IMG/VR virus record: IMGVR_UViG_3300028829_000731
Location: 1 to 23,644 of that record
Strand: one strand, 5' to 3'
DNA: 23,644 bases
Source: a virus
The notes below the pieces were generated by a model. That model did not search any database, was not told where the DNA came from, and was given only the letters and a program-made list of their open reading frames with translations. Shown here piece by piece: positions 1,903-22,999 of the stretch. How positions within the stretch are numbered: position 1 is the first letter of the stretch; every line of letters starts with the position of its first letter. The position numbers and the translations under genes are program-made.

Positions 1903-4187
1903 GACACTTCTCCTTTAAGAGTTTTCACTTCTTTTCTTAGCTCTTTAACAGCCTCAATCAAAAGCCCAACCATATTACCATATGCTACACTTTTAATACC
2001 ATTCTCATCTGTGCTAACTACTTCAGGAAGAACTGCCTCTACGTCTTGTGCAATAACACCTGTTTTTCTAGCGTCACTGTCCATATCGTTTCTAACAAAA
2101 GTCACACCGTTAATTTGGTCTACTTTATCTAGAGCGTCTGTAATAGGCCGCACATCATCTTTCAAACTGCGATCTGAATAGGCAGTTACATCACCTGTTG
2201 CAGTAAAGTCACCTGCATCATCAAACGTAAATCTAGTTGTAGTGGCATCACGAATAATGAAGTTATTGATACCCGCGTTCAGGTCAAGATAAAAGTCTGT
2301 TCCATTTGTAAATAACTCAGCATCTTGAGCACTACCAAAAGCAACAATGCCGTTATCATCAAGCTGAATGCTGTTGCCGTTAGCATCAAGTGTTCCACCG
2401 AGTTGTGGGGTAGTGTCTTCAACAACATTACCTATGCCAGCTGCTGGAAGCCCAGTTAAACCACTACCATCACCAACGAAGCCTGTACTAGCCGTGATGG
2501 TCGTGCCATCAATTGTCGTACCAGTTATTGCAGCAGCAGATGCGCCACCAATAATAGCACCATCAATAGTGCCGCCGTTGATGTCTACAGTAGTTACAGC
2601 GCCACCGTTTGCTACGGTTGCACCTGTAAATGTAATTGTACCAGAAGCAGTAAGATTTGTAAAGGTTGCAGCAGCAGCGGATGCTCCACCGATTACTACA
2701 CCATCTGCTGTGCCACCATTAATGTCCGTAGTAGTTAGTACGGAGCTAGCTAGTGTGACAATGCCTGTAGTATTTGCGATACTACCTGCGGACGAGCCGT
2801 CTTTGGCTTTAAGAGTTGTGACTTCAATGTTAGTGGTGTCTACAGTTGTAGCATTAGCAGTTGTAAAAGTACCGGCAGCAGCGGATGCCCCACCGATCAC
2901 TACAGCATCAGCCGTGCCCCCGTTAATGTCAGCAGTAGTCAACACTGCGCTAGCAATAGTTACGACACCAGTTGTGTCTGCAATGCTGCCTGCGGATGTG
3001 CCGTCTTTGGCTTTGAGGGTCGTAACTTCAATGTTAGTGGTATCTACAGTAGTGGCGTTAGCTGTACTAAACGTACCAACTGCTGGAGTTGTTCCACCTA
3101 TAGTCACGGCATCTGCTGTTCCACCATTAATATCCGCAGTAGTCAACACAGCGCTAGCAATAGTTACAACACCAGTTGTGTCTGCGATGCTGCCTGCGGC
3201 TGTTCCGTCTTTGGCTTTGAGGGTCGTAACTTCAATGTTAGTGGTGTCTACAGTTGTAGCGTTAGCAGTAGTAAACGTGCCTACAGCAGCACTTGCCCCC
3301 CCAATAGTCGTACCATCAATAGTGCCACCATCAATGTCAATCGTAGTGACTGTACCACCGTCTGCAAAAGTAGCACCGTTAAAAGTGATCGTGCCTGTAG
3401 CGGTAAGATCAGTAACAGTAGCAGCAGCAGCACTAGCCCCACCAATAACTACACTATCTAAAGTGCCATCATTAATGTCCGTCTTGCTGATTACAACATT
3501 GCCCGTACCGTTTGGCGTGATGTTAATATCACCATTAACGTCTGTACTGATAATCGTGTTACCGTTAATGTTGAGATTATCAACAACAGCAGAGCCTGTA
3601 ACAGTAACCACACCTGTAAGAGCAGTAGCACCAGTAATAGTGATGTTAGCAGTGTCAATAGTTACAGCAGTGGCAGCATCAATATCTAGCGTAGTTGCAG
3701 TGAGAGTGAACAGTGCTGTATCTAGTGTGGCAGCGGTTGAAGCATCTAGATCAATAGTAGGAGCTGCAACTTGAACTTCAGTGTCACCAACAATGTCTAG
3801 CTGGCCATCTACACTTGAGTTAATATACAAGTCTGTGTCACGGAATTGAACTTTAGTAGTTGTAGCGAAAAGAGTGCTCTCACCGAAGCCGTCAATGTAA
3901 GCCAACCCGTCTAAATACATATCTTTAAACTGAACACCGCTAGTACCGATGTCTAGAGTGTTAGTGGTCTTACCTTTAATCTCAGTAGCTGATGCAATGA
4001 AGTCTTGAGCTGGCCCGAGCTGAGTTACGGGTGCCCCTTCAGACGTAGTGCCATCATGTGTGTGTCCAGTAGTAGCGTTAAAAGCCGCCTCAATAGCATC
4101 GTACTCGCCATCAAAGTCAGCCGCAGTTACAACATTACCGGAGGCTATGTTATTAGAAGTGTCGTTTCTGATGTAGCCCGTACCCAT
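1899..4187 (-). CDS. Long tail fibre with C-terminal S74 self-cleaving chaperone domain
   Basis: A 762-residue fibre. The N-terminus (about 1-100) contains HTHDG (42-46), common in phage fibre attachment regions. The middle (about 140-650) is a low-complexity Thr/Ala/Gly/Asp beta repeat region, including three 68-residue units. The C-terminal 93 residues (670-762) match the peptidase S74 intramolecular chaperone: YSDRSLKDD supplies Ser671 and Lys676, the S-D-x-x-x-K spacing of the family, followed by GVIAQDVEAVLPEVV and a terminal helix (LLIEAVKELRKEVKTL). In known members this domain drives trimerisation and then cuts itself off just before the Ser. The ATG has AAGG about 8 bases upstream. 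It directly follows the nozzle gene, consistent with a host-binding appendage. Confidence 0.88.
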   Translation of the reverse strand: MGTGYIRNDTSNNIASGNVVTAADFDGEYDAIEAAFNATTGHTHDGTTSEGAPVTQLGPAQDFIASATEIKGKTTNTLDIGTSGVQFKDMYLDGLAYIDGFGESTLFATTTKVQFRDTDLYINSSVDGQLDIVGDTEVQVAAPTIDLDASTAATLDTALFTLTATTLDIDAATAVTIDTANITITGATALTGVVTVTGSAVVDNLNINGNTIISTDVNGDINITPNGTGNVVISKTDINDGTLDSVVIGGASAAAATVTDLTATGTITFNGATFADGGTVTTIDIDGGTIDGTTIGGASAAVGTFTTANATTVDTTNIEVTTLKAKDGTAAGSIADTTGVVTIASAVLTTADINGGTADAVTIGGTTPAVGTFSTANATTVDTTNIEVTTLKAKDGTSAGSIADTTGVVTIASAVLTTADINGGTADAVVIGGASAAAGTFTTANATTVDTTNIEVTTLKAKDGSSAGSIANTTGIVTLASSVLTTTDINGGTADGVVIGGASAAAATFTNLTASGTITFTGATVANGGAVTTVDINGGTIDGAIIGGASAAAITGTTIDGTTITASTGFVGDGSGLTGLPAAGIGNVVEDTTPQLGGTLDANGNSIQLDDNGIVAFGSAQDAELFTNGTDFYLDLNAGINNFIIRDATTTRFTFDDAGDFTATGDVTAYSDRSLKDDVRPITDALDKVDQINGVTFVRNDMDSDARKTGVIAQDVEAVLPEVVSTDENGIKSVAYGNMVGLLIEAVKELRKEVKTLKGEVS
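2646..3257 (-). repeat. Three tandem 204-bp repeats inside the fibre gene
   Basis: Three 68-codon units occupy 3257-3054, 3053-2850 and 2849-2646. Each begins TTVDTTNIEVTTLKAKDG and ends near INGGTADxVxIGG. The shared string ccgtctttggcttt recurs at 2797, 3001 and 3205, exactly 204 bases apart. The units differ by point changes, mostly synonymous or conservative. Shorter related pieces (GGTIDGxxIGGASAAA) flank the array on both sides. Confidence 0.92.
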
Positions 4188-4192
4188 TAAAT

Positions 4193-6184
4193 TTACCTTC
4201 TTGAGTGTGTTGCGTATTCGATAGTCAGAGAATCTAGTGCAAACGGAGGATTCATATCGTTAGTCTCTAGATAAAAAGAGCCCGTGTAACCTGAGCCTAT
4301 GAGATGAGTTGCCAGTGTAGCTTCGTAGTTCGACGCACCGAATACAGCAGTGCCGAATATAGCTTCCCCAAACACAGCTTGAGCTGAGGAGTCTGATGTG
4401 CTACTAACAGTTATAGTGTTAGGTTGTATTATTGTAGCCCCTTCAAAGTCTAGCTTTAAGTTGAGGTCAAAAGACACAGAGCCTTCGGGGTCAAGATAGA
4501 AGACTGCTCTGTAGAAAGTCTTACGGATTCGGGGGTCTTCAAAGGGCATATGAGGAGTTGCAAAGATTGCTGCTATGTTTGTACCGTTAAAGCTGTTCCC
4601 GCTTTCCATTCTATACAGATAGCCATCCTCATTGCCGAATAGCACATACTCTACATCACTGATGTAGAAGCTGTCTGCAGAGTATACTTTAATGCCTACA
4701 AGCTCAGAGAAAGCAAAGACAGCCCCCTCTTCGCCCTGCAATTGGGCACCTATGATGCCTCTAGATGCAGACTGGGCTGTGCCAGCGGTGTGGCTAAATA
4801 GTCTGTATTGACTCTTGCCTCTAATTACTGTAGATGTGAAATAAGTACCCGCACTAATGAAACTAGCAAATTCGGGTTGTATTACTTTAGACACTACGCC
4901 TAAATTGAAGTCGCCCACTCTGTCAGTAGCGCTCAGTAGTCTAATACCGTCAGGAGCTAAGAACATAACGTCTGTCCCTACTTCTTGAATAGTGTCACCG
5001 TACAGACAGCCTATGTCTCTAGTTACGGGTCTGAGTGTGTAGTCTGCTATGGTACTGCCAGTGAGATTAAAAATAGATGTCTCAGTGAAGATAAATAAAT
5101 TCTCTCTGAATACAACTAGCCCAGTTATAGTGTCGCCTACATTAATTAGACCTCCGCCTGAAGCTGCAGTAAAGTCAGACACGCTGTAAGGTGCTGTGTG
5201 AATTAAGTTAGGGCCTTTGCCGTAGAATATAGTATTCTTGTAATTGATGACATAAGAGGCACCAACAATATCTGCCGGAGCAGAGTCCAACACGGTATAA
5301 GTAGTGCCATCATATGTAGCAGGCTCATTTGTACCGTCTACAAAGACAACTTCATCTGCATTAGAGAAGTTATATCTTGCAAATCTCCGTCTTCCTGCAC
5401 TGCTTCTGTCGTTAGAGAGGAAAGTAATAGCTGCATTATCTGCAGGGCTACTATCTAGTGCGGGATTTATAGTCAAAGTTGCAGCATCGCCAGCTAGTGT
5501 AGCATCTGCTGTAACTGTATAAATGAGATCAACACTATCAATAGAGAAAGTGTCACCTGCTTGAGGGGCGGCTGTTAGGGCATCTACTGCTAAACTAGTG
5601 CCTGTTTGAGAGCCTCCAGCTACAAGTACAGTACCATAAGACGGTACGTTTAGGTGGGTATAACCGCTACCTGTAGTCTTAAACATACTAGCATTTCTAG
5701 CTACTAAGACATAAGCGTCTTCAATGTGAACCCCTAAAATAGAATGCTCCGTAGTCGTAGTTACAAATGTAACAGCAGCAGCATTAGCTGGACTACTAGC
5801 AAGAGACGTAGTTAAGGTTAATGTAGCCCTCTTATTAGTGCTATCGTAAGACACACCCGCTGTATCAATAGTGTACGTGCCAGTCACACCTGCTATAGTA
5901 AAAGTATCACCAGCTTCTGGCGTATAGTGTATAGATGCTATTACAAGTGTAGTACCTGTCTGACTAGCACCGTGTACAACGGGAGCCCCGTACGGAGGAA
6001 TTATGTTACTGTCGTATTTAGCATAGCCTAAGACACGTCTGTACCCACCCTGAATAGAGGGTTCAAAGTTCTTTAGAATACGGGCTGATCCGGGCGCATT
6101 AATGCCCTGCTGTAGCAAACTAAGATTGCTAACCAGCCCCCCTCTGAACTCAATAGGGTAAGTTTTCCAGCCGTCTTCAGCCAT
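4193..6184 (-). CDS. Tail nozzle-like protein (gp12-type tail tubular protein B)
   Basis: A 663-residue protein with no signal peptide. Its N-terminal opening (FRGGLVSNLSLLQQGINAPG, then a GGYRRVLGYAKYD element at 47-59) is the pattern I associate with podovirus nozzle or phage-stabilisation proteins that close the tail below the adaptor. About residues 140-480 show repeated beta strands consistent with a propeller-like core (VFRENLFIFTETSIFNL, then DVMFLAPDGIRLL). Two similar modules of about 70 residues are inserted at about 64-141 and 182-256, each with SQTGT...AGDTF...SSPAxxAAxTF. The ATG overlaps the preceding stop as TAATG. Following the adaptor and preceding the fibre, its place fits the order adaptor, nozzle, fibre. 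The class is inferred from pattern and synteny. Confidence 0.68.
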   Translation of the reverse strand: MAEDGWKTYPIEFRGGLVSNLSLLQQGINAPGSARILKNFEPSIQGGYRRVLGYAKYDSNIIPPYGAPVVHGASQTGTTLVIASIHYTPEAGDTFTIAGVTGTYTIDTAGVSYDSTNKRATLTLTTSLASSPANAAAVTFVTTTTEHSILGVHIEDAYVLVARNASMFKTTGSGYTHLNVPSYGTVLVAGGSQTGTSLAVDALTAAPQAGDTFSIDSVDLIYTVTADATLAGDAATLTINPALDSSPADNAAITFLSNDRSSAGRRRFARYNFSNADEVVFVDGTNEPATYDGTTYTVLDSAPADIVGASYVINYKNTIFYGKGPNLIHTAPYSVSDFTAASGGGLINVGDTITGLVVFRENLFIFTETSIFNLTGSTIADYTLRPVTRDIGCLYGDTIQEVGTDVMFLAPDGIRLLSATDRVGDFNLGVVSKVIQPEFASFISAGTYFTSTVIRGKSQYRLFSHTAGTAQSASRGIIGAQLQGEEGAVFAFSELVGIKVYSADSFYISDVEYVLFGNEDGYLYRMESGNSFNGTNIAAIFATPHMPFEDPRIRKTFYRAVFYLDPEGSVSFDLNLKLDFEGATIIQPNTITVSSTSDSSAQAVFGEAIFGTAVFGASNYEATLATHLIGSGYTGSFYLETNDMNPPFALDSLTIEYATHSRR

Positions 6185-6942: not shown

Positions 6943-7289
6943 TATTTCTCTCTCACTGCTATTTTAACACTGCGTTCAGCTACGCTACCGGAGGTATCAG
7001 TTATAGAGCAGTAGAATATATACTCTGTACTAGCTACCCCACCACCGAGATTAATAGTAGCAACAGTGTCCGTGTTAGTCTGAGATACATTCTGAATGCT
7101 GTCAGTGACAGCGCTGCCCGAAGCAGTAGTCAAAGTCTCACCTGCCTCTAAGTCCACTTTAGCTTGATCCGGTGTCTTTACGTACCACGTAACTGCTGAG
7201 ATAGTAATACCAGAACCGAGAAAACGGGACCAGTCTATGCTGTAATCTAAAGTCTCATCGGGGTCTTTTACAGGCCAACGTAGTGCCAT
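6942..7289 (-). CDS. Small virion protein resembling fibre-tail adaptors
   Basis: A 115-residue protein that opens with LRWPVKDPDETLDYSIDWS. This WPxKDPxExLDYxIDW pattern is one I associate with small phage proteins annotated as fibre-tail adaptors, with an immunoglobulin-like beta fold in the remainder (ITISAVTWYV, then STEYIFYCSITDTSG). It begins at a TAATG junction with GGAAG about six bases upstream and ends at a TAATG junction with the adaptor gene. It would join a fibre or adhesin to the tail; candidate partners are the repeat protein upstream and the long fibre downstream. A generic minor structural protein is the alternative. Confidence 0.55.
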   Translation of the reverse strand: MALRWPVKDPDETLDYSIDWSRFLGSGITISAVTWYVKTPDQAKVDLEAGETLTTASGSAVTDSIQNVSQTNTDTVATINLGGGVASTEYIFYCSITDTSGSVAERSVKIAVREK

Positions 7290-8383
7290 TAGTTTCTTCC
7301 ACTTATTGCTGTACGATCATACTGAGTACTAGTACGCTTAATATATATTGTTCTATTCTCAAACGCTACATAGGCTGTACGCTCAAACTGTGTAGGCTCA
7401 CGTCTTACATAAACCACTCTGTTTTTGTCAAAGAGAGCTTTTACAGCCTCGAAGTCAAAGACTGTAGCTGTGGTATTTACTGTGCCTACAGTGCCAGTAG
7501 CTGTTACACCTGTTAGTGTATTGTTTGCTGCTCCTGTAGCCGCTAGAGTGCCTACAGCACCCGTTGCTGTTACATCTGCTAATGTGGTGTTTGCTGCACC
7601 TGTAGCAGTTATAGTGCCTGCTGCACCAGTTGCGGATACACCTGTTAGTGTGCTGTTTGCTACTATGTTAGCAATTATAGTGCCTACAGTGCCAGTAGCT
7701 GTTACACCTGTTAGTGTAATGTTTGCTGCTACTGTAGCCGCTAGAGTGCCTACAGCACCCGTTGCTGTTACACCTGCTAATGTGGTGTTTGCTGCACCTG
7801 TAGCAATTATAGTGCCTGCTGCACCAGTTGCTGTTACACCTGCTAATGTGGTGTTTGCTACTATGTTAGCAATTATAGTGCCTACAGTGCCAGTAGCTGT
7901 TACACCTGTTAGTGTATTGTTTGCTGCTCCTGTAGCTGCTAGAGTGCCTACAGCACCCGTTGCTGTTACACCTGCTAATGTGGTGTTTGCTGCACCTGTA
8001 GCAGTTATAGTGCCTGCTGCACCAGTTGCTGTTACACCTGCTAATGTGGTGTTTGCTGCACCTGTAGCAGTTATAGTGCCTGCTGCACCAGTTGCGGATA
8101 CACCTGTTAGTGTGCTGTTTGCTGATATGTTAGCAATTATAGTGCCTACAGCGCCTGTAGCTGTTACACCCGTTAGTGTATTGTTTGCCGCTCCTGTAGC
8201 AGTTATAGTGCCTACAGAGCCTGTAGCTGTTACACCTGTTAGTGTATTGTTTGCTGCTCCTGTAACCGCTAGAGTGCCTACAGCACCTGTAGCTGCAACA
8301 CCAGTTAAAGTTACTGATGATACACTTACACTTGCCCCAGCAGACGCTAGCGGCTCAGAGGCTAGAGGAGCAAAGCCTAACAC
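7289..8383 (-). CDS. Virion protein built of 22-residue tandem repeats
   Basis: A 364-residue protein with three parts. A short N-terminus (1-20, MLGFAPLASEPLASAG) resembles starts of other phage structural proteins. A repeat domain (21-306) has one degenerate and twelve full 22-residue units of the form AANxTLxGVTATGAVGTIxATG, with no Cys, aromatic or charged residues apart from a single Asp. A conserved-looking C-terminus (307-364) carries two parallel motifs, VVYVRREPTQFERTA and TIYIKRTSTQYDRTA. The repeats probably stack as a beta solenoid or Ig-like rod; the C-terminus may bind the virion. The start is GTG at 8383 just after the previous stop, without a clear Shine-Dalgarno, and no in-frame ATG precedes the repeats. 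Function beyond a probable surface or fibre component is unknown. Confidence 0.75.
   Translation of the reverse strand: MLGFAPLASEPLASAGASVSVSSVTLTGVAATGAVGTLAVTGAANNTLTGVTATGSVGTITATGAANNTLTGVTATGAVGTIIANISANSTLTGVSATGAAGTITATGAANTTLAGVTATGAAGTITATGAANTTLAGVTATGAVGTLAATGAANNTLTGVTATGTVGTIIANIVANTTLAGVTATGAAGTIIATGAANTTLAGVTATGAVGTLAATVAANITLTGVTATGTVGTIIANIVANSTLTGVSATGAAGTITATGAANTTLADVTATGAVGTLAATGAANNTLTGVTATGTVGTVNTTATVFDFEAVKALFDKNRVVYVRREPTQFERTAYVAFENRTIYIKRTSTQYDRTAISGRN
7466..8323 (-). repeat. Nested 66-bp and 198-bp tandem repeat array
   Basis: Twelve full 66-bp units (8257-7466) plus one degenerate unit (8323-8258) encode the 22-residue protein repeat. On top of this lies a 198-bp higher-order period: the string tgcctacagtgcc starts at 7483, 7681 and 7879, exactly 198 bases apart, so groups of three units (endings LAAT, IIANI, I-ATG) have been duplicated as blocks. 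Units within blocks are nearly identical at DNA level. Confidence 0.93.
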
Positions 8384-12330: not shown

Positions 12331-12376
12331 AAAAGAAAAAGGGCGCTAGCTCCCGCTATGCAGTTACTAGCGCCCT
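12331..12376 (-). terminator. Strong intrinsic terminator after the capsid/decoration genes
   Basis: Read on the minus strand, AGGGCGCTAG (12376-12367) pairs perfectly with CTAGCGCCCT (12349-12340), a 10-bp GC-rich stem with a 17-base loop, followed at once by a T-tract on the transcript (TTTTTCTTTT counting the last paired T). This is a textbook rho-independent terminator, about 25 bases beyond the stop of the decoration-protein gene. Confidence 0.92.
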
Positions 12377-12400
12377 CAGTTAGATACCCTAACTTAAAGC

Positions 12401-12898
12401 TTAAGCTAGAGTGTCACGATCTACTTCATCAGCAGTCAGTGAAGCACCGTAGCCATCAATATCCATACAAACTGCCCATAGTCTGAGCTTACCCGTTAGG
12501 GTAGTACCAGTATTACTAGCCAGAAGAACATCAATAGTGTCAGCAGTTGCACCAATAACTACAGGAGTTTGCGTTGCCTTAAACGCAACGTCACCTACAG
12601 CAGCTGCATCAAAGGCGAAGCCATCGACAAAGTTATCTACGTCACCGCCAGTCACACCAAAGTCCCAATCTGCGTCCGTAGACGTACCAGTGTGGACTTC
12701 GAGAACCTCCCAACCAGCTGCCAAAACCAGAGTGTAGGCAGGAATAGTCAGGCCCGGAATGACATCGGCAGCGGCAAGAGCCGAGCCTTTGTCTGTTACA
12801 GCCTGTGCAATGTCGAGTTCGTACTCGATCATGTAAGGCTGTCGCCCGCGAGCAGTAGCGCCGTGGGCTACGGAAGTTGTGTTATCGCCTAAAGCCAT
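12401..12898 (-). CDS. Probable capsid decoration/cement protein
   Basis: A 165-residue acidic, Ala/Thr/Asp-rich protein predicted to be mostly beta (GLTIPAYTLVLAAGWEVLEV, then TIDVLLASNTGTTLTGKLRL). It lies 15 bases after the major capsid gene, has a GGGAG Shine-Dalgarno 9 bases upstream, and is the last gene before a strong terminator, so it is made from the same transcript as the capsid protein and probably at high level. Small beta-rich proteins in this position are commonly capsid decoration or head-fibre proteins. No family motif proves it. Confidence 0.6.
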   Translation of the reverse strand: MALGDNTTSVAHGATARGRQPYMIEYELDIAQAVTDKGSALAAADVIPGLTIPAYTLVLAAGWEVLEVHTGTSTDADWDFGVTGGDVDNFVDGFAFDAAAVGDVAFKATQTPVVIGATADTIDVLLASNTGTTLTGKLRLWAVCMDIDGYGASLTADEVDRDTLA

Positions 12899-12913
12899 TA
12901 TTCAATACTCCCT

Positions 12914-13978
12914 TTATACCAAATTAACTTTGGCGTTCACAAGAGCCTCTGGACGGAGAATCTTTGTGCCATACAGATGCATACCCCGAACGACATCGGC
13001 GAAACTGTCAGTATCGCGATACGATTCGGTTTTGTTGATCTGCTCAGCGGTAGCGATTGCCGAACTATGACCTGCAACAATTAGGCCGTAGTTACTAGCG
13101 TTCGTGCCGCCCGTTGTGGCTGGGCCCGTTCCAATAACCGGAAGGTTGTTAGAGCAGTACACCTTAAAGCCGTGAAGGTCACTTAGAATAAGACCGTTCT
13201 TAAGGGCGCTGTTAGCACCGGCGAAGTCGGAATTAAACAAGCGAGAGTCTTCGTCCTGAAGAATCTCTTTGCAGACTGGATCAAGAATAAGCCAACGAGC
13301 TTCCATCGGAACATTCTGCTGGTTGAGTAGACGCGCCATACGAGCAATTACTTGCAAGACATAGGCGTTACCAGAGCCCGGAACAGTAGACGTTGCACCC
13401 GGAGCACGAGCTTGAATGCCAATAGAGCTACCAGCTGAACCACCGAAGTCATCGGCTTCTAGTTTCATGCTCGAAAGCAATTCATCCGTGCCAGCAGTAC
13501 TAACTGCAACGGAGCCGTTAACAGTAGCATTAACAGTGTCACCAACAGTGTGATTAGCACTCTGCTTATAGCCACACATGTAAGCTAGAACGTCTTGATC
13601 GTAGTTGTCAGCAAGACGATAAGCTGCACGGTTACTGGCAAGAGAGCCAAAGTTTACGTGCGAATGAGCCTCTTCGATGTCATCAACTTTAAAGGCGAAG
13701 TAGTTCGACTTATTGATGGTCAAAGAGAAGTCTTCGTCGTCGAGGTCTTGAGCTTGAATGACCGAACCACGAGTGTAAGGTCTAACCGTGATTTCCGGTT
13801 CTTTGATGATTTTTACAGTGTCACCGAAGTTTGCGATTTCACCGAAATAGTCGGAGTTAGTAATATCCTGTGCAGTAGACTTCTTGCGGAAGGCAAGCTG
13901 CACCTGTTTGGAATAGATAGTAGCACTAAAATTCCCGTTAGGAAGATTACCGTACCCCGCCGCTGTTGAAAATGCCAT
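12914..13978 (-). CDS. Major capsid protein (HK97-fold type, inferred)
   Basis: A 354-residue protein with the features of an HK97-fold coat protein of short-tailed phages: an N-terminal arm (about 1-40, including SATIYSKQVQLAFRKKSTAQ); a beta-hinge/E-loop-like segment (GDTVKIIKEPEITVRPYTRG, then LTINKSNYFAFKVDDIEEAH); a long A-domain with MARLLNQQNVPMEARWLILD; and a C-terminal strand (SFADVVRGMHLYGTKILRPE). There is no N-terminal pro-domain, so maturation cleavage is not required. AAAGGA is 8 bases before the ATG. It follows the scaffold gene after a 260-base gap holding its own promoter and leader, and precedes a likely decoration gene. Confidence 0.85.
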   Translation of the reverse strand: MAFSTAAGYGNLPNGNFSATIYSKQVQLAFRKKSTAQDITNSDYFGEIANFGDTVKIIKEPEITVRPYTRGSVIQAQDLDDEDFSLTINKSNYFAFKVDDIEEAHSHVNFGSLASNRAAYRLADNYDQDVLAYMCGYKQSANHTVGDTVNATVNGSVAVSTAGTDELLSSMKLEADDFGGSAGSSIGIQARAPGATSTVPGSGNAYVLQVIARMARLLNQQNVPMEARWLILDPVCKEILQDEDSRLFNSDFAGANSALKNGLILSDLHGFKVYCSNNLPVIGTGPATTGGTNASNYGLIVAGHSSAIATAEQINKTESYRDTDSFADVVRGMHLYGTKILRPEALVNAKVNLV

Positions 13979-14061
13979 TAGGGCAATCCTTTCATTTAGC
14001 GTCAGATGCTAACCTACAACATCTCAAAGAGGCTATACTTGTGAGGGTGCGTTAGTATATT

Positions 14062-14073
14062 AGTTGGCCAACT
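14062..14073. repeat. 12-bp perfect palindrome in the capsid leader
   Basis: AGTTGGCCAACT reads identically on both strands. It lies about 130 bases downstream of the predicted capsid transcription start. It could be a dimeric-protein binding site or part of leader RNA structure; nothing in the sequence decides between them. Confidence 0.55.
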
Positions 14074-14155
14074 TCTATAATAACGGGCTACACGCAAATA
14101 GGTGAGTCTAGATAAATTGTTAGTTGCTGTGTGTTTCAATAGTAGATGTAGGTAG

Positions 14156-14191
14156 GAGTTAGAGGTACTTCTGTAGTCACACCTCTAACTC
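14156..14191 (-). repeat. 11-bp hairpin at the 5' end of the capsid mRNA
   Basis: On the minus strand GAGTTAGAGGT (14191-14181) and ACCTCTAACTC (14166-14156) are perfect complements separated by 14 bases. The hairpin begins about 12 bases after the predicted transcription start. No T-tract follows, so it is not a normal intrinsic terminator. A hairpin near the 5' end could protect the transcript from decay, or act as a protein-binding or RNase III site. Confidence 0.75.
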
Positions 14192-14209
14192 GGCTACGTT
14201 TGCATAGTA

Positions 14210-14237
14210 GTTATATGTTTTTACTTCTAAAAGTCAA
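14210..14237 (-). promoter_or_regulatory. Sigma-70-type promoter for the capsid unit
   Basis: Immediately after the scaffold stop codon the minus strand reads TTGACT (14237-14232), 16 bases, then TATAAC (14215-14210). Each hexamer matches five of six consensus positions (TTGACA, TATAAT). The predicted start is near 14203. It lies in the only large intergenic gap and points at the major capsid gene. Confidence 0.75.
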
Positions 14238-14238
14238 G

Positions 14239-15126
14239 TTACTTCTTTTTGAGATCGTAGATGAAGCGACCTTCTTGAATAGCTAGAGTGATTTCATCTA
14301 CATTCTTCTCATACTCGTCCATAGACATTCTCTCTACATCAGACTCTCTAATAGAGTTAGTCTGGTCGCTTTGAGGGCTGTTACGAGCTGTTTTACTGTT
14401 TACAAAAGCTGCTGCATCATCTGCTGACTGCTTTCTTTTCTTATTCGGCTTATCAGAGATACCTTTATCAATCTTATACAGATCAATAGCTCTAGCTGCT
14501 GATCTAGCATCTTTATCATCTTCATAAAGAGCCTTCTGTACCCACGCAGGCTGTTCATCTGCCCACGTGTGGAAAGCATCATCATCTCTGATCTCTGCAA
14601 AGTCTGGATGGAGCTGCATAAGAATAGTCTCAGCCCTCTGCCTCTCTGTGTCTTCCTCTTTCTGAGTAATAGCCTCAAGTCTACTTTCTAGACTTGCAGA
14701 CTGTTCTTTAGCTTTAGTAAGGGCAATACTCTCTACAATAGCTGCAACTTCTGGATACTTAGCCATCCAGCTCTCGATGTCTGCATCCGACGCGGGTAGC
14801 TGAATACCCTCTTTAGTTACTGTATCCAGCTGAGCTTGCATGTCTGCTAGCTTCTGTGTATACTCTCGTTCTAATTTCTGTGAGTGTCTACGGAGGTCTC
14901 CGTATCTCTTCTTAAAAGTCTTCTCTTCAGCACCTTCAGGCTCTAGCTCTGCTGCACCCTCTACAACTGCATCGGGAGCATCATCATCCTCTTCTGCTTC
15001 AGCGTTACGTCCTGCCATAAGAGCAGCTAGCTCTTCTTCATCTCTCTGAATACGAGCTTGATTACTGTTAGGTTGACTAATAAAACCACGCTTCTCGGGT
15101 ACTACAACTTGATCTAGTTCAGGCAT
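14239..15126 (-). CDS. Capsid assembly scaffolding protein
   Basis: A 295-residue, highly charged and mostly helical protein. The N-terminal part has an acidic stretch (about 41-70, EAEEDDDAPDAVVEG). A coiled-coil-like centre follows (YGDLRRHSQKLEREYTQKLA near 75-94, and a Glu/Gln-rich stretch near 140-165), then a basic patch (NKKRKQ near 226-231) and a C-terminus ending DLKKK. Acidic ends, central coiled coil and a basic C-terminal region are typical of phage scaffolds that bind the coat protein inside the procapsid and leave before DNA entry. It sits directly upstream of the major capsid gene. The ribosome site (AAGAAG) is modest. Confidence 0.8.
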   Translation of the reverse strand: MPELDQVVVPEKRGFISQPNSNQARIQRDEEELAALMAGRNAEAEEDDDAPDAVVEGAAELEPEGAEEKTFKKRYGDLRRHSQKLEREYTQKLADMQAQLDTVTKEGIQLPASDADIESWMAKYPEVAAIVESIALTKAKEQSASLESRLEAITQKEEDTERQRAETILMQLHPDFAEIRDDDAFHTWADEQPAWVQKALYEDDKDARSAARAIDLYKIDKGISDKPNKKRKQSADDAAAFVNSKTARNSPQSDQTNSIRESDVERMSMDEYEKNVDEITLAIQEGRFIYDLKKK

Positions 15127-15209: not shown

Positions 15210-18059
15210 TTACCTTCGCGTTGCTAGTCCGCCTTTAGCATACTGTTTTTTCTTCTTCTTACGCTTCTTTACGAAGCCTCCGCGACCGAATGCATCGCCC
15301 GGTTGGCCATCGTCGCCTCCACCACCGCCTCCACCACCGCTTCCGCCGTCACCACCGTCAGCTCCACCACCGCCATCGTCACCCTCGCCCGGATCGCCCG
15401 CAGCGTCTGTGCCGCCACCAGAGCCTGTACCGGCACCATCACCCTGTCCAGCGGAATTGCCATCACCGCCATCGTTACTGCCGTCATTATCGCCACCAAT
15501 AGATTCTTGACCCGCGCCTAAACCCGCGCCTAAACCCGGATTGCCGGGGCCATTGTTCAACCCACCGCTGTATGTATCTGTTTCTGGATCAGTTGGATCT
15601 ACGTCAGGGTTTTCTGGATCAACTTCACCCATCTCCATACCGCTTATTGCAGTAGCAACTTCTGCGTTTATTGCAGCATTATTAATAGCCTGTGCAAGAC
15701 CTGCGGGTGGGGCAAGCGGAGTAAAGGGAAGTGTCGTAATTTCGTTATTTTTACGATCATAGTTATGACCAAACAGGCCCTTCGTTTGATGGCCCGGATT
15801 TTGGCCCACCATACCCAGTGTTTCATTGTGGTTATTTATATTGGGGTCTACCCCAGCTGCAGCAAATGCCGCACGTTGATTTAGAGCTTGTACTGTAGCA
15901 GCTGGTAGACCGTTTAATTGGTTAGTCATTGCAATGCCCATCAAACTGGCGCGAGCTGCATCTTTAGTAGCGACGTTATTTACTTGCGATAAATCCAGAC
16001 CCATAATACTTGCTAGACCTGAAGCTGCAGCTGCTGCTGCACCACCCCCCACACGTCCAGCCAGTCCAACTGGAGAGATAGTAGCAGATATCATTTCATC
16101 TACAGCAGAAAGAGCTGCTCTACCGAGTGCAGTATCGCCTAAAGCACCAAAAGAAGATAAAGATGCTGCATTAGCTATTGAGGGGTTAGCTGCCATTCCA
16201 GAAACAGACTGTCCGCTAGTCTGAGTGTCTCCTGCATCGGCGTTTCGCTCATCTGTTCTACTAGCTGCCCCAGTACCGTTAAGGCCTTTATTTATTGTTT
16301 CTAAGTAGCCCGTTAGAGCCTCCTGTTCGTCACTACTAGCCCTTTTATAGAACTCCTCTATAGGGGTTTGTAACTCCGGTTGATTACCAAACAGCTGTTT
16401 TACGAGATAGTTATAGTTCTTCAGACCTGTGTCACCTTCACCTAAGCCTCCTACTAAGTTTGCTTGAGAGAGGCCCGGATTATCTTTAAAGTAGCTTTGA
16501 AAGTCCTCACCGTCTACCTTTGTATTGTCAAAGTCTGGCGCTTCTGTGGGGTCCGGTGTTGGGGTGTTATCTGTATCAGTCTCATTTGTGTTGTTAAAAA
16601 TGTCTTTTAAGATATCATTATAATTACTAGCGTCTACATACAAGCCCTCTGCTGCCTCTACTGGCCCTTCTTCATCTACATCAAAGTCTTCTAGAGTGAA
16701 AGGCAAATCTTCCTCTTCTGATTCTCCGCCACTTTCACTGAATAGCTCATCAGGCCCAGATGCAGCATCCCCGTTGCCCATTTGGCCCATCTCCTCCATA
16801 CGAGCAAAACCTTTCTTAGCTTTGTCTCGGAGTTTCATGAAATACTCTACACCGAAGAACTTGACTACATCAGCTGGGATGACCATCTCGCCTTCACTTA
16901 ATCTAGCTGGAATGTCATCCCTTACTTCTTCTGGCTTACTGCCAATAGGCACTTCGTTGCCTGATACAGGATCAACTTTCGGTGCTTCTTGCATCATGCT
17001 GCTCATTTCGTCATTCATGTTTGTATTCATTCCGCCCTCTGCAAATCCTTTAGAACCTTTTTCTAAGGTGGCAGCTCTTAACTCTGTTAAGCGTTCTTGT
17101 GCTAGACCCTCTACCACATCAGCGCTCTGTACAAGTTGATCTAGAAAACCTTTAATGTACTCGTCGCCTTTCATAGTCTTAGACTTCCAGCTCTCAGCCC
17201 TCCAGCCGTTAAAGGCGTTTATAGCTTGCAATTCTCCCGCCGTTATTTTATTACTTTTTAATGTCTCACGCCTGTCTTTTATAAAGACCCTTACATGATC
17301 CTCATTAACCGTAGACGGATTTGCAATGTAGTCTGTAACTGGAGAAGTATGGGCCATTACATTTTGTTTATTTTTTATACTGTCTCTTTGCAGGATACTA
17401 TTAAGAATTACATGCTCTACTGCTACCGAAAAGTTCGGGGCAACTCTTTCAGCGAGAATGTCCAGAGCTACGTTACCCTCCCGTGCGGGTATTCCGCCCT
17501 CTCGTATTTTGGAAAATGCATGATGCATAGACTCATGAACTAGTGTGTTTACTCTACCATCGCGCCACTTACCTTCATCTGTAAGCTTTTGTCTTGCTTT
17601 TTTTCTCGTTACGCCTTCGGCGTTGGTGCCTTCATCGTTGGTATTCATAGTGACAACGCCGCTGTCAGGTGTGTACCACCCCTTCGTTTCACCGTGATTA
17701 CGGTGATCTACCGCTGCAGCACTAAGTACGTCTATGCCTCTTCCTGTCTTTAAGAGGAAGTTGTTATTTCTATCTGTATCGGTTGCTTCATAGTGTTCTA
17801 TGCGTTTATTTAATTCACCTGTATCTGTTTCATTACTCAAGTCCTCCATACCAAAAGCAGACAGAGTGTTTTCCCTCTCTTCCGCGTCCAGCATAAGCTC
17901 ATTGTCAGCTAGACCTAAAGCAGCCTCTGTTTGGTAGGGGTCTTTAGCTAGAGCGGCCCTTATTTCTTCTTTAGTGGGGGACGACACGCGTTGCCAGCCA
18001 GCAGTAGTACGGTCTTCTGGACGAGTCTTAGGTATGGGGGCGCGTTTACTCTCAGGCAT
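15210..18059 (-). CDS. 949-residue virion-associated protein with HExxH metalloprotease-like motif and Gly-rich tail
   Basis: A large multi-part protein of unknown function. Residues about 85-215 form a zincin-like region: VNTLVHESMHHAF (170-182) has the HExxH zinc-protease motif at 175-179 with hydrophobic residues before it, and Glu205 is a possible third ligand. Residues about 338-430 hold a separate module (FAEGG, DPVSGNEVPIGS, SEGEMVIPADVV at 388-399, RMEEMGQMGN) that I recognise as recurring in marine phage proteins with no known role. Then come an acidic region, an Ala/Gly-rich helical region (about 640-760), a Gly/Asp low-complexity stretch (about 810-925) and a Lys-rich end (KKRKKKKK, then YAKGGLATRR). 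The start overlaps the preceding stop by 8 bases. Lying between portal and scaffold, it may be a prohead protease or an internal virion protein. Confidence 0.62.
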   Translation of the reverse strand: MPESKRAPIPKTRPEDRTTAGWQRVSSPTKEEIRAALAKDPYQTEAALGLADNELMLDAEERENTLSAFGMEDLSNETDTGELNKRIEHYEATDTDRNNNFLLKTGRGIDVLSAAAVDHRNHGETKGWYTPDSGVVTMNTNDEGTNAEGVTRKKARQKLTDEGKWRDGRVNTLVHESMHHAFSKIREGGIPAREGNVALDILAERVAPNFSVAVEHVILNSILQRDSIKNKQNVMAHTSPVTDYIANPSTVNEDHVRVFIKDRRETLKSNKITAGELQAINAFNGWRAESWKSKTMKGDEYIKGFLDQLVQSADVVEGLAQERLTELRAATLEKGSKGFAEGGMNTNMNDEMSSMMQEAPKVDPVSGNEVPIGSKPEEVRDDIPARLSEGEMVIPADVVKFFGVEYFMKLRDKAKKGFARMEEMGQMGNGDAASGPDELFSESGGESEEEDLPFTLEDFDVDEEGPVEAAEGLYVDASNYNDILKDIFNNTNETDTDNTPTPDPTEAPDFDNTKVDGEDFQSYFKDNPGLSQANLVGGLGEGDTGLKNYNYLVKQLFGNQPELQTPIEEFYKRASSDEQEALTGYLETINKGLNGTGAASRTDERNADAGDTQTSGQSVSGMAANPSIANAASLSSFGALGDTALGRAALSAVDEMISATISPVGLAGRVGGGAAAAAASGLASIMGLDLSQVNNVATKDAARASLMGIAMTNQLNGLPAATVQALNQRAAFAAAGVDPNINNHNETLGMVGQNPGHQTKGLFGHNYDRKNNEITTLPFTPLAPPAGLAQAINNAAINAEVATAISGMEMGEVDPENPDVDPTDPETDTYSGGLNNGPGNPGLGAGLGAGQESIGGDNDGSNDGGDGNSAGQGDGAGTGSGGGTDAAGDPGEGDDGGGGADGGDGGSGGGGGGGGDDGQPGDAFGRGGFVKKRKKKKKQYAKGGLATRR

Positions 18060-22611: not shown

Positions 22612-22881
22612 TTACTCTTTCTCTAATGCTTGTCTGGCTGCGTTGTTGGCCTGAGCGATGCGCGCAATACGCTGAAGTAAAGGACATTCATCTACGTTGG
22701 GATTGTCCACACATTTCTCAGGCCAATAGAATGGCTGCTCAGTCCATACAGACAGGCAGCTAACTGCTTTAATCGGGGGAGGTTTAACTGGCCCTATTAG
22801 GGTCGTTCCGCAGGCTATCAGGACTGACATCAGTAACAACGTCGCTACGAGCTTTGGCAGCTTCTCTAACATCTTCTGCAT
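22612..22881 (-). CDS. Small lipoprotein, possible outer-membrane spanin
   Basis: An 89-residue protein with a lipoprotein signal: a basic start (KLPK), a hydrophobic core (LVATLLLMSVLIAC) and lipobox L-I-A-C at about 21-24. The mature part opens with a Pro-rich segment (GPVKPPPIKA) and holds three further Cys residues, then a short helix. Its first 98 bases overlap the preceding gene in another frame, the arrangement of many Rz/Rz1 spanin pairs, in which a small Pro-rich lipoprotein anchors in the outer membrane. An alternative start three codons in (MLEKLPK) is equally plausible. Extra Cys residues and length are not classical for Rz1, so the call is tentative. Confidence 0.55.
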   Translation of the reverse strand: MQKMLEKLPKLVATLLLMSVLIACGTTLIGPVKPPPIKAVSCLSVWTEQPFYWPEKCVDNPNVDECPLLQRIARIAQANNAARQALEKE

Positions 22882-22999
22882 CTCTTTCTAGCCAGTTGGC
22901 TTTAGCTGCTTGTTCAGTTTTCTTATCTGCCTTCTTAGCTGATATACCACCCACTATGCCAGTGATAAGTTTTAGTACTAGTTCAAGTACAGACCACAT
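22784..22999 (-). CDS. Short helix protein paired with the embedded lipoprotein (spanin- or holin-like)
   Basis: A 71-residue protein. Residues 2-20 (WSVLELVLKLITGIVGGIS) form one hydrophobic or amphipathic helix, followed by a charged helical stretch (KKADKKTEQAAKANW...) and a polar tail with PDSLRNDPNR. A membrane anchor plus charged helix, with a lipoprotein gene overlapping its end out of frame, suggests an inner-membrane spanin, although it is much shorter than lambda Rz. The anchor contains Glu and Lys, so membrane insertion is not certain. It starts at a TAATG junction with the upstream lipoprotein gene. A small holin is the alternative. Confidence 0.45.
   Translation of the reverse strand: MWSVLELVLKLITGIVGGISAKKADKKTEQAAKANWLERDAEDVREAAKARSDVVTDVSPDSLRNDPNRAS

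Follow-up and report, generated by a model that had tools for sequence, protein, structure and literature searches.

The capsid and decoration genes of an HMO-2011-type podovirus appear to be transcribed together from a promoter of their own, behind a leader RNA whose fold is conserved among relatives. On balance, we favour a model in which a dedicated sigma-70 mRNA for these two genes carries a conserved cis-acting leader RNA that sets translation and/or mRNA lifetime. The broader proposal that the capsid mRNA is controlled in cis in some form is one that we hold with good confidence. The window, by which we mean the whole stretch of DNA analysed, is a virus record of 23,644 bases that encodes the proteins of an HMO-2011-type podovirus; it is a fragment of the genome of such a marine phage. 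One study describes phages of this type as dominant and widely distributed in the sea (PMC9038755).

Along the minus strand, the order is promoter, leader, capsid and decoration genes, and intrinsic terminator. The features are as follows, with the basis of each in brackets.

14239–15126, minus strand: upstream gene for a 295-aa protein in a PHROG without known function (PHROG).
14232–14237, minus strand: −35 element TTGACT, which is TTGACA in nearly all relatives (sequence, relatives).
14210–14215, minus strand: −10 element TATAAC, at a spacing of 16 (sequence, relatives).
14156–14191, minus strand: H1, the 5′ leader hairpin, an 11-bp perfect stem with arms GAGTTAGAGGT and ACCTCTAACTC (sequence, relatives).
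14002–14129, minus strand: structured RNA element; its stacked helices form a rod that P1 closes, with an apical GGCC loop (covariation, covariance models).
14050–14085, minus strand: apical hairpin of the element, near-palindromic, with apex UUGGCCAA (sequence, folds).
13996–14012, minus strand: short hairpin UUAGC-AUCUGAC-GCUAA (sequence reading).
13987–13992, minus strand: Shine-Dalgarno sequence AAAGGA, 8 nt before the capsid ATG (sequence).
12914–13978, minus strand: gene for the major capsid protein, 354 aa (PHROG, identity to the HMO-2011 coat protein).
12401–12898, minus strand: gene for a predicted decoration (cement) protein, 165 aa (predicted fold, profile search).
12331–12377, minus strand: predicted intrinsic terminator, a GC-rich stem-loop (12377–12339) and a T-run (folding, relatives).

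The capsid gene is surrounded by large terminase, portal and tail genes, all on the minus strand (window, PHROG), and its product shares 77% identity with the coat protein of Puniceispirillum phage HMO-2011. The 165-aa protein encoded next has no match in PHROG or Pfam. Its predicted fold (mean pLDDT 84.8) finds a capsid chain of cyanophage Pam1 as the closest solved structure (E 3.3e-5, TM 0.73 by the target), and the first five structure matches also include the capsid of Ralstonia phage GP4 and the cement proteins of Helicobacter phages KHP30/KHP40. A profile search, which is independent of the fold search, weakly recovers the KHP30 cement protein (E 0.024). These matches support a role as decoration protein, and together with PHROG and the coat protein identity they bear out the names capsid and decoration that a first-pass annotation of this DNA had given to the two genes. 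The 295-aa protein occupies the site where a scaffold gene is expected, and may be the scaffold.

Three other proteins of the window deserve mention. An open reading frame of 364 aa at 7289–8383 carries repeated TLTGVTATGAVGT-like units, and the opposite strand is open there too, for 321 aa. A protein of 949 aa whose C terminus is Gly/Asp-rich and Lys-rich (15210–18059) has no PHROG match, and its place is taken in relatives by a gene that is shorter or of another kind. The 203-aa protein at 452–1063, also without a PHROG match, reads as a putative GNAT-type acetyltransferase.

The gap upstream of the capsid gene measures 260 nt and, as previously described, is the only large one in the window; the next-largest gaps by the open reading frame list are about 117 nt (22881–22999, with a 71-aa open reading frame inside), 88 nt (the terminator gap) and 83 nt. 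Across relatives, the gap between the upstream and capsid genes spans 193–320 nt in the 71 of 74 loci in which an upstream open reading frame was found (none was found in the other three). The promoter TTGACT-16-TATAAC follows directly on the upstream gene's stop codon. It lies where the first-pass annotation had placed a near-consensus sigma-70 promoter, and is conserved in relatives. From 74 of 80 capsid loci, 17 named phages and the window, we drew 87 distinct upstream regions; loci L016, L026, L035, L038, L070 and L079 are outside these counts as their contigs start too near. A 12/12 match to TTGACA-N15–19-TATAAC/T is present in 74 of the 87, and the spacing is 16 in 72 of those 74. The window promoter scores 11/12, and the other lower scores fall to named phages alone, with low values for Roseobacter phages CRP-207, -2, -603, -212, -3, -235 and -738, rhizobial phages, pelagiphages and ctYwJ313.

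Promoter-like words are not enriched in the window (26, against 27.6 expected from shuffles), so the capsid promoter is credible through its conservation rather than its letters alone. A generic sigma-70 scan of the window does not list it because the scan requires the −10 box to end in T. The C-ending −10 box TATAAC agrees with the RpoD −10 consensus of the alphaproteobacterium Caulobacter, which is given as GCtANAWC in PMC8144410. The site combines a TTGAC −35, a spacing within 16–18 nt, a −10 of the TANAWC/TATAAT form and conservation upstream, as in alphaproteobacterial sigma-70 promoters, and would start transcription at about 14203. The annotation of HMO-2011 contains no RNA polymerase. 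Two further 12/12 sites occur in HMO-2011 (GU557055), TTGACA-17-TATAAT at 31754 and 53396 on the minus strand of the late region, the strand that also carries the late genes, and are candidates for other late promoters.

At the other end of the unit, the GC-rich stem-loop and T-run after the decoration gene, previously read as an intrinsic terminator, give −33.9 kcal/mol over 70 nt (z = −5.25), a stability that no shuffle out of 200 attains. Of 80 distinct stretches scanned behind the decoration gene, or behind the capsid gene where no decoration open reading frame was recognised, 45 contain a hairpin with a T-rich tail, compared with 6 of 400 mononucleotide shuffles. A strict terminator scan found 16 of 81, a low yield that arose because its filter asked too much of the T-run. 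Thus a GC-rich stem-loop, a T-run and a conserved place are all found, as in intrinsic terminators, with a T-run that is weak in many relatives. The poor T-runs suggest that the 3′ hairpin may be a partial terminator, and partial termination after the decoration gene is likely. Many relatives (L008, L010, L020 and others) share a common hairpin core, GGCAGGGCAACUUGCC, a degree of conservation that exceeds what a terminator needs.

The tail genes of the window lie beyond the terminator, and no good promoter was seen right after it, between 12331 and 12312, so that these genes probably depend on read-through. Such a layout would suit an antitermination RNA, in which the nascent leader modifies RNA polymerase and thereby lets a fraction of it pass the terminator and reach the tail genes; any polymerase that reaches the capsid genes has indeed already transcribed the element. 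Against this, a weak T-run is common in the conserved 3′ hairpin, which polymerase can then pass without any factor, and the element keeps a near-constant distance to the ATG and not to the promoter (see below). We consider antitermination improbable.

No terminator was seen in the window between the upstream gene and the promoter, and the unit is therefore closed at its 3′ end only. The first-pass annotation called the unit self-contained. Its own promoter, its leader and the conserved 3′ hairpin support a separate capsid and decoration transcription unit; closure on the upstream side does not hold, and read-through from there is possible.

The leader, which ends at the capsid ATG at 13978 (minus strand), contains two structured regions. 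H1 has an 11-bp stem that is reached by 1 of 1,000 dinucleotide shuffles of the leader. The first-pass annotation had recognised this stem correctly and had put it at the very start of the leader, from which it is displaced, as it begins about 12 nt after the probable transcription start. The sequence of H1 varies freely across relatives while a strong stem is kept (z < −2 in 41 of 43). Contig L102 is near-identical to the window, with an upstream protein 98% identical, and differs from it at 7 of 280 positions of the promoter and leader. Four of the changes fall in H1 and three in the linker that follows, with none in the promoter, the core or the ribosome site, and the H1 changes include a compensatory pair (A14184C/T14163G). 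A strong stem with free sequence and a compensatory change resembles a 5′ protective hairpin. It would fit a passive leader that enhances stability or translation, whose structures only block nucleases and hold the ribosome site open, with neither a partner nor regulation; the strong promoter and the GC-rich 3′ hairpin are in keeping with this account as well.

The main conserved element, at 14002–14129, had not been singled out before; what had been proposed is that the leader should be conserved in relatives, and it is, with covarying stems. Conserved letter strings are evident in an alignment of 71 distinct upstream sequences. RNAalifold predicted almost no structure from a first alignment of all cores, owing to badly cut rows (L039, L030, L057, L059 and CRP3). 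Covariation was scored on a plain MAFFT alignment of 41 of the 48 cores, made without L039, L030, L057, L059, L073, CRP3 and CRP345; L073, CRP3 and CRP345 were later placed by the model in a second alignment. The structure scored on the 41 cores, with 30 pairs, was read from one sequence. Paired cells amount to 88.5%, compared with 30–41% when the partners are slid, and both sides change in 17 of the 30 pairs. The covariation score is 0.333 versus 0.148 in shuffles, with none of 500 as high. RNAalifold, run independently on this alignment, yields 16 pairs, and both sides change in 13 of them. Among 40 more diverse leaders, in an alignment fitted to the structure, both sides change in 26 of the 30 pairs. 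Paired columns thus change together beyond the controls, as in structured RNAs.

The folding energy of the core is unremarkable (median z −1.0, and below −2 in 5 of 43). The core is not unusually stable, and support for the element comes from covariation, by which its fold is well supported. Internal loop one is nnAC/CC in 40 of 41 sequences and nnnAC/CC in the other, internal loop two is CAC/CC in all 41, and 28 columns show no change at all among the 41. A passive leader has no need for such invariant loops or unchanging columns, and we regard it as unlikely. In folds, the H1 of some phages also sets CC opposite a strand ending in AC. A reading of the internal loops as C-loops is not claimed, as the literature gave no consensus to compare against.

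The window copy of the element is nearly palindromic, which could suit a site acting as DNA, such as an operator or a replication or packaging site. However, pairs vary and are restored in helices parted by asymmetric loops, which is a property of folded RNA, and the element always lies just upstream of the capsid ATG. A DNA-level function is thus highly improbable.

The position of the element points to the ATG side. Its 3′ end lies 27.7 ± 4.1 nt from the ATG (range 22–40, 43 leaders), whereas its distance from the transcription start is looser, at 52.7 ± 18.1 nt (range 39–127, the same number of leaders). The 3′ strand of P1 (GUUUGC or GUUAGC) is shared with the short hairpin just before the Shine-Dalgarno sequence, where it overlaps the 5′ arm, so the rod and the hairpin cannot both form fully. 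P1 itself stops shortly ahead of the ribosome-binding site. This competing hairpin is present, in the forms searched, in 36 of 48 cores. The fixed place, the invariant loops and the competing hairpin are consistent with a role in controlling capsid translation or the lifetime of the mRNA. Codon 2, GCA or GCT, tends to go with particular leader letters, and we considered a pairing of leader AAAUGC with GGCAUUU at the capsid start (or AAAGC with GGCUUU). The short hairpin accounts for these letters too, and the GCT phages L012, L057 and L066 break the rule, so that the pairing is no more than a possibility.

The element is closely tied to the capsid gene in other phages. A covariance model (R2) finds matches in 15 of 17 complete phage genomes, and the best match always lies just upstream of the capsid gene. 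Three of these phages, Sinorhizobium phage phiM6 (E 5e-5), Roseobacter phage CRP-738 (0.015) and Rhizobium phage RHph_I3_11 (0.029), had no part in training the model; the last two are convincing by place more than by score. Pelagiphages HTVC033P and HTVC115P have short gaps only and no match to the element. They carry the same capsid family, and the capsid can therefore do without the element. No copies elsewhere in the 17 genomes rise above noise, and an extra match in HMO-2011 (17.4 bits) was taken as chance. Phages with the element infect SAR116, Roseobacter and, more weakly supported, rhizobial hosts.

Searching 42 loci at E up to 5 gave 23 model matches, 17 of them at the expected place besides HMO-2011 and the window; the weakest of the expected-place matches score no better than four matches elsewhere. 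Fourteen of these loci (L033 and relatives, and L065) gave no match, and neither did the two pelagiphages or the actinobacterial loci searched with them. Poor or absent matches in two sub-clades suggest that the element has diverged or been replaced there. A search of 35 loci yielded three matches, in metagenome-assembled genome contigs L292 and L293 and in L102, and none in relatives within actinobacterial genomes. A DNA pattern for the core retrieves at least 120 stretches. Among the matches listed, 111 were newly fetched; the capsid gene begins 130–159 nt downstream of the match start in 109 of these, and the remaining two run off the contig.

Two of the loci carry insertions. In contig L293, labelled Blastopirellula sp., a group I intron (3076–3420; Rfam RF00028, 50.5 bits) splits the capsid gene behind residue 62 (pieces 2903–3088 and 4001–4882) and has an open frame resembling a putative homing endonuclease; the leader element lies 28 nt before the true ATG. 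In Podoviridae sp. ctYwJ313 (L088, 1815–2384), the gap between the upstream and capsid genes holds a gene that carries the annotation PacI-like HNH endonuclease, and the element (2344–2467) is kept at the downstream end.

Rfam 15 gave no match at gathering score across the whole window, GOLLD, ROOL and OLE included, and the leader matched none of its families even at E up to 5; the leader element is a candidate new RNA family. We found no paper on HMO-2011 together with an RNA motif in a search that covered mostly non-subscription journals. In papers on the group, a term search returned no promoters, terminators or non-coding RNA of HMO-2011-type phages; 'intergenic' and 'RNA polymerase' there concern rRNA spacers and other phages, respectively. 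Papers that name Puniceispirillum, HMO-2011 and promoter likewise concern other phages, by title and opening of the abstract.

The apical loops of the leader raise a further possibility. The main loop is A/C-GGCC-A in most leaders, and UGAUCA, UGUACA, CGUACA, UAGCUA, AGCGCA or UUGCAA in others. A palindromic tetramer (GGCC, GTAC, AGCT, GCGC, TGCA or GATC) occurs in 22 of 27 distinct loop contexts, and in 8 of 13 hand-sorted loop families compared with 2.2 in shuffles (0.00035, with descent not corrected for). This preference for self-complementary tetramers of differing sequence, and the sharing of loops such as UAGCUA, UCGCUA and AGCGCA between H1 and the main element of different phages, could mean that the leader recognises itself, with kissing loops joining capsid mRNAs, or processed leader RNAs, in pairs. 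We hold this to be quite doubtful, and treat the palindromic loops as a lead, not a result. If true, dimers or larger assemblies of capsid mRNA would be the form that is translated or stored where shells are built. A related proposal, that the leader, released from the mRNA by cleavage or acting as its own molecule, works as a separate non-coding RNA, possibly as a kissing-loop homodimer, seems marginally more doubtful still. The loop families were sorted by hand and are not corrected for descent, the loops AUCGCUA, AUCGCAA, GGCG and GGCA are not palindromic (UAGC is a further exception), and no loop was obtained from 16 of 82 leaders. The element's fixed tie to the capsid ATG also favours action in cis.

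In the cis-acting mechanism that we favour, host sigma-70 RNA polymerase would start near 14203 and transcribe the structured leader and then the two genes for capsid and decoration protein, whose products would be the two most abundant shell proteins, and would stop, at least partly, at 12331. The rod would probably be bound at its invariant loops by a phage or host protein, and the bound rod may set the start of capsid translation and/or mRNA lifetime (the direction of the effect is presumed). P1 and the hairpin adjacent to the Shine-Dalgarno sequence could form a switch. Such post-transcriptional control would allow capsid protein to be made in large, measured amounts. The function of the element is read from sequence and position, and within it, translational control through a bound protein is a tentative proposal. 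An RNA fixed to the capsid gene offers a concrete handle on the balance of structural proteins in these phages, and this candidate family is present in phage isolates and can thus be tested.

Large phage- or prophage-encoded RNAs offer one comparison. The sections of PMC12286853 on GOLLD and ROOL describe them as phage- or prophage-encoded, much larger and often near tRNA islands, and those on OLE and GOLLD describe symmetric same-loop kissing contacts between chains, with covariation. The present element is likewise phage-encoded, and its palindromic loops recall the OLE and GOLLD contacts described there. It differs from all three RNAs in its length of about 128 nt, its place in the 5′ leader of a capsid mRNA and its lack of an Rfam match.

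The layout of the unit is like that of T7 gene 10, a capsid gene with its own strong promoter (phi10), a leader and a terminator (T-phi) straight after it. T7 uses its own RNA polymerase there, and its short leader is important for expression. Here, by contrast, the promoter is of the host sigma-70 type rather than that of a phage-encoded RNA polymerase, the leader is longer and the decoration gene is included; to our knowledge, the T7 leader has no conserved fold of this kind of about 128 nt. The put RNA of phage HK022 is a structured operon leader ahead of a terminator that acts by antitermination on RNA polymerase. Our element resembles it as a structured phage operon leader ahead of a terminator, a likeness of layout, and differs in its fixed spacing to the start codon. 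In T4, the gene 32 leader autoregulates a phage protein through a cis-acting structure near the ribosome site. The capsid leader has a different fold and a putative binding partner, and it is like the gene 32 leader in being a probable cis-acting RNA next to the ribosome site of a bulk protein.
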